A DNA stretch of 64,000 nucleotides from Chloroflexota bacterium. GTDB taxonomy: Bacteria > Chloroflexota > Anaerolineae > Anaerolineales > Villigracilaceae. The position numbers were made by a program, and so were the translations under genes. The notes beneath the pieces were generated by a model, which was not told where the DNA came from, did not search any database, and saw only the letters and a program-made list of their open reading frames with translations. This document shows positions 14,101 through 58,410 of this stretch, one piece after another (the stretch's first letter is position 1; every line of letters begins with the position of its first letter). The DNA is taken from the NCBI GenBank assembly GCA_016213105.1, contig JACRBN010000019.1, forward strand, positions 1 through 64,000, read 5' to 3'.

Positions 14101-15069
14101 GTGACGGGTATTACGAACATGGTCATGCCGAAGATCGAGCGCGAAGCTGAAGCTCGAAATTATGGCAAATTTACAATCAGCCCGCTGGAACGCGGCTATG
14201 GTGTGACGCTGGGCAACGCCCTGCGCCGCATCCTGCTTTCCTCGTTGGAAGGCGCGGCTGTATCGTCCATACGAATTGCGGACGTTTTGCACGAATTCAG
14301 CGACATCCCCGGTGTGCGGGAGGACGTCATCCAGGTCATGCTGCAGATCAAACAACTGCGCATCAAACTGGACGGCGTGGACAGCACCCGCATGCACCTG
14401 GAAGTCCGCGGCGAGGGCACTGTCACCGCCGCCGACATCATCACCCCGGCCGAAGTGGAGATTGTCAACCCCGATCTTTACCTCTTTACCGTGGATAACA
14501 ACAAAACCAAGTTGGACATCGAGTTGACGGTCGAACGCGGACGCGGTTATTCCCCCGCCAATGACCGCGCCGGGCACATGCCCATCGGCGAACTGCCGGT
14601 GGATGCAATCTACAGCCCGGTCAAACGTGTGAACTGGGAAGTGGTCTCGGCCCGCGTGGGTCAGAGCACCGCCTACGACAAACTCGTGCTGGATGTCTGG
14701 ACAGATGGCACCATCTCGCCGGAGCGCGCGCTCAGCTCCTCCGCCAAGCTTCTCATCGACCACCTGCGCTACATTGCGGGCGTCAACGAGGAAACCCTGA
14801 CGGTGGCTGTGGAACGCGAAGTGAGCGGCAGCCGCCTGAGCAGCGAAGTGGCTGAGACCCCTGTGGAAGCCCTTGACCTTTCGGTGCGCGTCTTCAACTC
14901 CTTGAAGCGCACCGGCATCACCACTGTTGGTGATGTGCTCGACCTGCTCGAAAAAGGCGAGACGGCCGTCATGAGCATCCGCAACTTTGGCGAAAAGAGC
15001 CTTGACGAATTGCGTCAGAAGATGCGCGAAAAAGGCTTCCTGAAAGACGATACGACCTCTGCGGAGTAA
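14101..15069 (+). CDS. rpoA: DNA-directed RNA polymerase subunit alpha
   Basis: 322 residues. The N-terminal dimerisation domain (about 10-235) contains RGYGVTLGNALRRILLSSL; the C-terminal domain (about 250-315) binds UP-element DNA and activators. R263, N266, K299, S300 and E303 correspond to the E. coli DNA-contacting residues R265, N268, K298, S299 and E302. The GTG at 14101 follows GAGAGG; an ATG six codons later is an alternative. The CTD is the closest relative in this window of the extra domain on L31. Confidence 0.97.
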   Translation: MTGITNMVMPKIEREAEARNYGKFTISPLERGYGVTLGNALRRILLSSLEGAAVSSIRIADVLHEFSDIPGVREDVIQVMLQIKQLRIKLDGVDSTRMHLEVRGEGTVTAADIITPAEVEIVNPDLYLFTVDNNKTKLDIELTVERGRGYSPANDRAGHMPIGELPVDAIYSPVKRVNWEVVSARVGQSTAYDKLVLDVWTDGTISPERALSSSAKLLIDHLRYIAGVNEETLTVAVEREVSGSRLSSEVAETPVEALDLSVRVFNSLKRTGITTVGDVLDLLEKGETAVMSIRNFGEKSLDELRQKMREKGFLKDDTTSAE

Positions 15070-57035: not shown

Positions 57036-57064
57036 TTGACATGCCCCCGGCCTGCATGTATAAT
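57036..57064 (+). promoter_or_regulatory. Consensus promoter for rplU-rpmA-rpmE
   Basis: TTGACA (57036-57041), 17-base spacer, TATAAT (57059-57064): a perfect sigma-70 consensus. Start of transcription about 57071, where a strong hairpin begins. Confidence 0.9.
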
Positions 57065-57218: not shown

Positions 57219-57536
57219 ATGAAATATGCGATCGTTGAAAGCGGCGGCAAACAGTACCGCGCCGTCGAAGGCTCCACCATTGATGTGGACCGCCTGCCCG
57301 TTGAAACGGGTGAGAAGATTGACCTGCCCGTCCTGCTCGTGGCGGATGGCGATGATGTCCAGATCGGCACCCCGCTCCTTGGCGCCCCGGTCAAGGCCAC
57401 GGTGCTGGCTCACGTCAAAGGTCCCAAAGTCCTGTCCTTCAAATACCGCCCGAAGAAGCGCATCCGCGTTCGCGGTGGGCATCGCCACCAGTACACGCGC
57501 CTGATGGTCGACGCCATCGGGGGCGAGGGCAAGTAA
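57219..57536 (+). CDS. rplU: 50S ribosomal protein L21
   Basis: 105 residues. Begins MKYAIVESGGKQYRAVEGS and has the C-terminal FKYRPKKRIRVRGGHRHQYTR, both diagnostic. TGGAGAG lies before the ATG. First gene of a three-gene ribosomal operon driven by a consensus promoter. Confidence 0.97.
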   Translation: MKYAIVESGGKQYRAVEGSTIDVDRLPVETGEKIDLPVLLVADGDDVQIGTPLLGAPVKATVLAHVKGPKVLSFKYRPKKRIRVRGGHRHQYTRLMVDAIGGEGK

Positions 57537-57592: not shown

Positions 57593-57865
57593 ATGGCTCA
57601 TAAAACTGGCGGCGGTTCAAGCCGCAATGGACGTGATAGCAATTCCCAGCGCCTGGGCGTGAAGCGCTACGCTGGCCAATTTGTGCTCTCTGGCAACATT
57701 CTCGTTCGACAGCGTGGCACGAAGATCAAGCCTGGCTTGAATGTGCTGGTGGGTAAGGACGATACGCTCTTCGCTGTCGCTGACGGCGTGGTGATGTTCG
57801 ACGTGATCCACGGCCGCAAGCGCGTGAACGTGGTTCCGGTACAGCCAGCGGTTGTGGCTGAATAA
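57593..57865 (+). CDS. rpmA: 50S ribosomal protein L27
   Basis: 90 residues. Begins [20 protein letters not shown], the flexible N-terminus that reaches the peptidyl-transferase centre, without the cleaved N-extension of Firmicutes L27. [21 protein letters not shown] is typical. AGAGGTAG precedes the ATG. Confidence 0.97.
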
Positions 57866-57876
57866 AGGATATATCA

Positions 57877-58350
57877 ATGAAGCCCCAAATTCATCCCACC
57901 TATTATCCCGACGCGAAGGTCTCCTGCGCCTCCTGCGGCAAGACCTGGACCACGGGTTCGACCCGCAAGGAACTGCGCGTGGATATTTGCTCGAATTGCC
58001 ACCCGTTCTTCACCGGCGAGGCCGCCCGCCTCATCGACATTGAAGGCCAGGTGGATCGCTTCTATAAGAAGCTCCAGGCTCGACAAACCCACGTGGATGC
58101 TGTGTCGGCTCGCGAAGCTGCCAAGGCTGCGCCCGAACGCACCATCGAAGAACTCGGCCTGGCCACCCGCGCCACCGATGCGCTCAAGAAGGCTGGCGTT
58201 GCCACTGTGAACCAACTGCTTGCCAAACTTGGCGAAAGCGACGGAGCCGTGCTGGCGATTGCAGGCTTCGGCCAGTCTTCGCTGACTGCGGCCAAGAAGA
58301 AACTGCGCGCGCTCGGTTACGAACTGCCCGAGACCCCCGCCGCGGCGTAA
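57877..58350 (+). CDS. rpmE: 50S ribosomal protein L31 fused to an RNA-polymerase-alpha-CTD-like domain
   Basis: 157 residues, about twice the usual L31. Residues 1-70 are zinc-type L31: C17-x2-C20 and C38-x2-C41, HPTYY at the start, [21 protein letters not shown] (in part) after the second pair. Residues 89-148 align without gaps to RpoA 254-313 in this window, 21 of 60 identical by hand count. R98 matches the alpha DNA-contact Arg and G132/S135 are kept, but N, K and E contact residues are D101, S134 and A138. Reading frame and terminator are intact, so this is a real fusion. Confidence 0.93.
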
Positions 58351-58376
58351 TCAGGCATTTCCTTCTGGAAAAATGA

Positions 58377-58410
58377 CAGGCAGACGTGAAAACGTCTGCC
58401 TGTTTGTTTA
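58377..58410 (+). terminator. Terminator of rplU-rpmA-rpmE
   Basis: An 11-bp stem (58377-58387 with 58392-58402) closed by a stable GAAA tetraloop, followed by TTTGTTTA. It ends the operon and confirms that the extended L31 stop at 58350 is the true end. Confidence 0.9.

Follow-up and report, generated by a model that had tools for sequence, protein, structure and literature searches.

The only copy of ribosomal protein bL31 found in the genome of a Chloroflexota bacterium of the class Anaerolineae (assembly GCA_016213105.1) is a single chain ending in a module with the fold of the C-terminal domain of the RNA polymerase (RNAP) alpha subunit, RpoA (aCTD). The gene lies in the first 64,000 nucleotides of contig JACRBN010000019.1, the whole stretch of DNA analysed here (the window). 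Ribosomal proteins of this class have repeatedly taken on aCTD-type modules, and an extension made of a polymerase domain, acquired again and again by several ribosomal proteins, is a new form of ribosomal-protein extension. The fusion had been picked out by a model working from the letters alone (the sequence-only reading), which knew of no description of it; none of the fusion or its context was found in the open-access full-text literature searched.

The fused frame is intact, as the sequence-only reading had stated (Table 1), and it opens with the complete zinc-type L31 domain that this reading described, including four cysteines in two CxxC pairs (C17, C20, C38 and C41). The top Foldseek matches of the fused chain were short chains of solved ribosomes, unnamed in the table of matches and taken as L31 from their length and match. 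The fused rpmE is the third gene of an rplU-rpmA-rpmE cluster, an order also seen at seven relatives' loci (L257, L258 and L260-L264). The protein shares with the zinc-type bL31 (PF01197; bL31A) a complete domain, both CxxC pairs and the gene order, and differs in its length of 157 residues. The tail is encoded on L31, not on the RNAP alpha chain, whose gene in the window retains an intact aCTD of its own. Behind the fused gene the sequence-only reading had placed a terminator with a GAAA loop; the hairpin exists, but its terminator-like score was obtained on the minus strand only and the T run on the plus strand is interrupted, which supports a terminator only in part.

Table 1. Features of the fused gene and its surroundings in the window, and the genomes and loci of relatives with modules on bS16 and bL21
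Feature	Position	Strand	Evidence or remark
Sigma-70-type promoter-like site, 5' of rplU-rpmA-rpmE	57036-57064	+	12/12 consensus bases, 17-base spacer; consensus match only
rplU (bL21), 105 aa, without aCTD module here	57219-57536	+	ORF and motifs by eye; relatives' bL21 compared
rpmA (bL27), between rplU and fused rpmE	57593-57865	+	ORF by eye
bL31-aCTD fusion gene (rpmE)	57877-58350 (ATG 57877 to TAA 58350)	+	Intact ORF, 157 aa
bL31 body, residues 1-66, zinc type	57877-58074	+	Pfam PF01197, 86.2 bits; NCBIfam PRK00019.1; Foldseek
Linker, residues 67-81	58075-58119	+	AlphaFold2: predicted continuation of a long helix spanning 55-83
aCTD-like domain, about residues 82-151	58120-58329	+	PF03118; VIA-align; 21/60 identity to RpoA
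Hairpin with GAAA loop, 3' of fused gene	58376-58403	.	Hairpin scan: 12 pairs, 7 G-C
rpoA, own aCTD retained	14101-15069	+	Intact, GTG start 14101; aCTD 68.4 bits (Pfam match 14842-15030)
bS16 with aCTD module	loci L195, L222, L230, L231, L232, L235, L268, L269, L270		Genomes G065, G157, G212, G227, G101, G240, G132, G177, G195
bL21 with aCTD module	loci L257, L258, L259, L260		Genomes G157, G065, G132, G227

Profiles, the predicted fold and conservation throughout the order support the reading that a genuine L31 here carries a tail of aCTD type. In the whole protein, Pfam places RNA_pol_A_CTD (PF03118) at residues 82-144 with 35.8 bits against a curated cut-off of 23.8. Searched alone, as the sequence-only reading had proposed, the tail scores 37.8 bits (E 1.5e-9), and PF03118 is the sole Pfam family above its own cut-off. 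The NCBIfam models of RpoA match the tail as well (best E 3.8e-10), with scores under their whole-protein cut-offs, as expected since the tail is a single domain, and a sequence search of the PDB places RpoA chains at the top. The gap-free hand alignment of residues 89-148 with residues 254-313 of the window's RpoA (numbered from GTG 14101) proved exact, with 21 of 60 positions identical; the maximum in 2000 shuffles of the tail was 15. The NusA AR family is not among the Pfam matches of the tail, and no AR chain appears in the best 50 VIA-align rows, which excludes nothing.

The fused protein was modelled with AlphaFold2 from 20 aligned fusions (the window's and those of 19 named loci). In the model (mean pLDDT 76, pTM 0.40), the L31 fold is followed by the long helix and by five short predicted helices (residues 90-93, 97-105, 111-120, 122-126 and 133-146); given the low pTM, the modelled placement of the two protein halves relative to each other is uncertain. 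With this model, Foldseek returned ribosomal chains first and RNAP alpha chains lower, among the best 50 rows. When the tail model was compared by VIA-align, the structural test that the sequence-only reading had suggested, it matched the aCTDs of E. coli (Z 10.9), Synechococcus (9dvu_A; Z 10.7, rmsd 0.9 over 60 residues) and Bacillus (1z3e; Z 10.3). The top 37 rows by Z (10.9 to 8.4) were all aCTD-bearing chains, and the first non-alpha rows, the helix-hairpin-helix domains of Rad51/Dmc1, appeared from Z 8.3 amid further aCTDs. Since a Z below about 13 may reflect an arrangement common in helical folds, the fold backs the profile match and does not stand alone, the sequence profile being the stronger evidence. 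An unrelated helix-hairpin-helix family, one of two ways in which the sequence-only reading thought it might fail, is ruled out by the aCTD being the only family above its cut-off and by the aCTDs in the top fold rows.

The other was a separate gene joined to L31 by misassembly. A search with the fused protein found the fusion in 60 of the 61 genomes of the window's order, the window genome included, which rules out an assembly error or a frameshift. The exception (G041) gave a match to RpoA only, with no L31 seen; in one genome (G006) a contig end cuts the match so that it begins with residue 18, and in the others it runs from L31 through the tail. In the class sample, at least 47 of 199 genomes have a match that reaches into the tail (query end at 136 or beyond). 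Among the matches listed for the phylum sample, 28 of 301 genomes reach into the tail, all 28 in the window's class, and no row from other classes does so. A scan of named L31 kept 80 loci. Among the matches listed, the module is present at 19, all of them Chloroflexi/Chloroflexota or Anaerolineae-group records, and absent from the other 61, which span many phyla including other Chloroflexota and encode an L31 of 65-115 residues. Three loci of other phyla with query matches up to 119-145 (L315, L348 and L358) are not fusions, their L31 ending at 74, 66 and 67 residues, and the long L31 frames of three genomes of other families (G142, G225 and G155) carry, by eye, charged low-complexity tails and not the module.

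In the window's own genome (28 contigs, 97.55% complete), the fused-protein search at E 0.001 gave two matches, the fused L31 and RpoA, and no second L31; a search with PF03118 returned the same pair. Purifying selection acts on the tail: its pN/pS was 0.05-0.28 in nine close pairs, in each of which the L31 body, at 0.00-0.14, was the more constrained part.

Additional PF03118 matches were read in 40 genomes of the class, picked mostly for several matches or a fused L31. A C-terminal aCTD module was found on bS16 in nine genomes (families f20, f54 and f58) and on bL21 in four (three of f20 and one, G132, of f58), and bL31 was unfused in the five f20/f54 genomes read that have bS16/bL21 modules (L257, L258 and L260-L262). 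NusA modules follow the KH domains and precede the acidic tail, with two copies in G145 and G084, and in three genomes RpoC has an aCTD-like insert after the catalytic NADFDGD motif (L276, L277 and L278, in G150, G142 and G111). Pfam confirmed the aCTD on bS16 (43.0 bits), on bL21 (51.8), on NusA with two modules (120 for both) and on the bL31 of G145 (59.0). In the window's order, the aCTD module of NusA (L201 1363-3381 and others), placed after KH2 and before the acidic tail, is diverged. The copy in the window genome, at frame residues 482-552, was detected at i-E 1.4e-9 by a profile made up largely of L31 tails, and Pfam reports no aCTD on it. By eye, the NusAs of families f34/f60/f62 have at best a recognisable degenerate stretch without the GxG hairpin.

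Further matches lie elsewhere. A response-regulator/glycosyltransferase-like (GT2-like) protein (L194 813-4172, G177) has, by eye, three aCTD modules in a row, and a small XRE-type HTH protein (Pfam HTH_3; L275 120-638, G064) has a terminal one, so the modules have spread beyond the expression machinery. Four loci (L073, L095, L096 and L192) show two to six aCTD-like repeats, mostly with a short E. coli-like loop, and the first three have sigma-region-like parts by eye.

The fusions were placed on a tree built from RpoA sequences, the CTD removed, of 62 genomes of the class. Its main fused clade holds 32 fused genomes and the unfused G063 (f18), which indicates that the module can be lost. Three fused genomes of families f30/f55/f59 stand amid unfused families, and the fused G145 stands beside the unfused G118. 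A single clade for all 36 fusions was rejected (tree test, p 0.0007); the module was therefore acquired by bL31 on two or more occasions. A third separate gain, in f30/f55/f59, is suggested by this tree and by one of the domain alone, while a single origin of the fusions without G145 was not rejected (p 0.114). The domain tree, built on 67 columns and of weak resolution, has the same three sets of L31 tails, with the f30/f55/f59 rows split over more than one branch. The modules of NusA, bL31, bS16, bL21 and RpoC and four others group together, apart from RpoA (support 84, few columns), and eight repeats from sigma-like and small proteins side with E. coli RpoA.

The G145 tail falls within its family's NusA modules (support 96, starred). 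It is 79% identical to the second module of its own NusA (108 bits, compared with 82.4 for the best RpoA and 70.9 for the best other L31 tail), direct evidence of a separate capture, which most simply would have come from NusA. The sequence-only reading had compared the tail with RpoA only; the nearest non-ribosomal module in this recent case is that of NusA, and bS16 and bL21 carry modules too. A direct copy from RpoA in the window's lineage is unsupported, since the NusA, ribosomal-protein and RpoC modules group off RpoA in the domain tree, although most of them have the longer loop of the class RpoA described below.

Canonical binding of UP elements by the bL31 tails appears unlikely from their residues. 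The E. coli contact set, which we take to be R265, N268, G296, K298, S299 and E302, with a loop at 281-290, is present only in part in the window: R, G and S are kept and N, K and E are changed. As the sequence-only reading had noted, R98 corresponds to the alpha arginine and D101, S134 and A138 differ; the window's RpoA has N, K and E at these three positions. Each of the six residues is kept in 68/68 rows of the class RpoA. Among 85 rows of bL31 tails, R265 is kept in 79, G296 in 78, K298 in 57 and S299 in 48; N268 and E302 are mostly lost, surviving in 14 and 5 rows, with D in place of E302 in 54. Given these counts, we do not claim a UP-element-binding aCTD. The 26 NusA rows keep R265 in 19, N268 in 17 and K298 in 24, and the equivalents of R265, K298 and S299 are found in all bS16 (8/8) and bL21 (4/4) modules. 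Position 294 is N in 68/68 RpoA rows, as against G in 84/85 L31, 21/26 NusA, 8/8 bS16 and 4/4 bL21 rows. The loop, of 10 residues in E. coli by the same numbering, has 13 or 14 in all RpoA (68/68) and L31 (85/85) rows of the class and 13 in 25/26 NusA, 5/8 bS16 and 1/4 bL21 rows; as the modules mostly share the longer loop of the class RpoA, most look home-grown. In sum, the bL31 tail resembles the RNAP aCTD in profile, five-helix fold, R265 equivalent and a loop three residues longer, as in the class RpoA, and differs in its place on a ribosomal protein, in the window's substitutions at N268, K298 and E302, in G and not N at 294, and in a basic fourth helix.

NusA C-termini were read in 80 genomes of the class and in nine from other classes, 89 in all and with four more loci set aside, and a module was called at a profile E < 1e-3. 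It was absent from all nine Chloroflexota of other classes read. These nine, and G084 and G096, in which L31 was unread, are left out of the co-occurrence table. The 34 class genomes without a ribosomal module were labelled unfused by reading (29) or from L31 frames of at most 100 residues (5), and none of the 20 L31 fetched as a check had the module. Of the 44 genomes of the class in which a ribosomal protein carries the module, 36 had one on NusA as well, compared with 5/34 of those without (Fisher p ~1e-8, on a raw table of related genomes). The counts were 35/44 and 5/34 with a profile free of NusA sequences, 36/44 and 6/36 with G084 and G096 left in, and 17/25 and 1/30 without the 24 genomes picked for aCTD matches or as the window's own. 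Independent pairs on the tree numbered two on supported branches and six on all branches, too few for significance. Because the genomes are related and only two independent pairs are supported, the association between NusA and ribosomal modules is suggestive only. Two genomes (G138 and G199) have a fused bL31 and no NusA module, and five (G063, G064, G066, G072 and G118) have a NusA module and no ribosomal one.

As part of the only bL31, the module would be displayed by nearly every ribosome. On the 30S head, the C-terminus of bL31 touches uS13 at bridge B1b (PMC10931766, in part), so the module would stand there beside uS13, on its helical tether. Our preferred reading, to which we give somewhat less than an even chance, is that the tail is a candidate docking module touching the transcription machinery, much as NusA AR2 docks on the aCTD. 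Its partner would be the aCTD of RpoA, NusA, or nearby nascent RNA or DNA, and ribosome and polymerase would be held together, which is the coupling that the sequence-only reading had proposed for the fusion. That the module occurs on several ribosomal proteins fits a tether more readily than a single fixed contact with rRNA. Its retention across the order under purifying selection, the raw association with NusA modules, and the R265, K298 and S299 equivalents kept on bS16 and bL21 also speak for docking. bS16 and bL21 lie at different places on the ribosome. Because the sites of bL31, bS16 and bL21 differ and one module is nearest to that of NusA, docking is narrowly favoured over a purely structural role.

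In that structural role, the module would be an extension that binds rRNA or ribosomal proteins, bracing the 30S head or bridge B1b or aiding assembly, and would never meet RNAP. Domain extensions of ribosomal proteins are of a known kind. We regard this as nearly as likely as docking, because one helix of the bL31 tails is basic and two DNA-contact residues are missing from most of them: the mean charge of the fourth helix is +4.07 in L31 tails, as against +0.32 in RpoA and +0.38 in NusA; positions 304 (K), 305 (K or R) and 308 (R) are basic in 78-80 of the 85 rows; and the GxG hairpin, with its G at 294, is canonical. The published contact of the bL31 C-terminus with uS13 fits it too. Together, the basic helix and the loss of N268 and E302 are as suggestive of rRNA as of RNAP partners and count against docking, as do the looser constraint on the tail than on the L31 body and the spread of such modules to a glycosyltransferase-like protein and HTH proteins. 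On the other side, the bS16 and bL21 modules are net acidic on average (-2.67 over 6 rows and -3.0 over 3 rows, compared with +0.76 in L31) with a weaker charge on the fourth helix (-0.33 and +1.67), and the bL31 tails of f30/f55/f59 and G145 are themselves acidic, with a net charge of -3 to -9.

The docking reading also has a wider form, which we hold as a proposal with rather more doubt than belief: in this class, ribosome and transcription machinery would share one covalently attached docking module, an aCTD-type domain that may first have been on NusA and would have been transplanted at least twice to bL31 and further to bS16 and bL21, so that ribosomes would bind RNAP or NusA through it. 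An improbable alternative is that a promiscuous small helix-hairpin-helix domain was captured by chance, with no logic in its hosts and a minor role in solubility, stability or weak affinity for nucleic acids. The modules on the GT2-like protein (three copies), the XRE-type HTH protein and sigma-like proteins, and the loss in G063 within the main fused clade, speak for it; retention in 60/61 genomes of the order, purifying selection and the repeated attachment to ribosomal proteins, NusA and RpoC argue against it. Autogenous control, in which fused bL31 off the ribosome would bind its own promoter DNA, its mRNA or the transcribing polymerase through the tail, is very improbable: DNA or NusA could be bound by a domain of aCTD type, and gamma-proteobacterial bL31 represses its own mRNA, but the repressing part there is the N-terminal segment (PMC10931766, in part), the gene is third in its cluster, and N268 and E302 are mostly lost.

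Related systems are known. NusA AR domains and the aCTD are helical folds of the same broad class, and NusA is said, in work attributed to Schweimer in 2011 and cited in PMC12297416, to bind at the UP-element site of the aCTD. NusA-dependent expressome contacts also link ribosome and RNAP. In E. coli, the NTD and AR2 of NusA bind the RNAP aCTD (PMC7171158 and PMC12297416, in part). The C-terminal AR1/AR2 of that NusA is likewise a docking platform, with AR2 for the aCTD (PMC7171158, in part), whereas most NusA modules of the class match the aCTD family itself. The link between uS10 and NusG is a physical connection of the ribosome with RNAP (PMC10931766, in part), and these NusG-uS10 and NusA contacts are of the same kind as the putative coupling by bL31 and use separate proteins; unlike them, the fusion has a polymerase-type domain covalently in a ribosomal protein. 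If docking is correct, this would be a coupling system unlike NusG-uS10, with polymerase-type domains built into the ribosome; if rRNA is the partner, the fold of a polymerase domain would have been recruited as a ribosomal part. For the coupling of ribosome and RNAP outside E. coli, a lineage whose ribosomal proteins repeatedly took a polymerase-type domain, with one on NusA in many of the same genomes, offers a natural and directly testable case, the modules being 65-residue domains amenable to purification and binding tests.

Some single observations were also made. In six fused bL31 (L068, L106, L113, L122, L123 and L296), most or all of the zinc cysteines are lost and the aCTD module is kept. 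Frames of about 1380-1560 residues in G087, G117, G139 and G174 contain aCTD matches. Stand-alone aCTD-like frames of 84-86 residues occur at L199 420-677 and L200 376-627, in G114 and G164, both of which have the L31 fusion.
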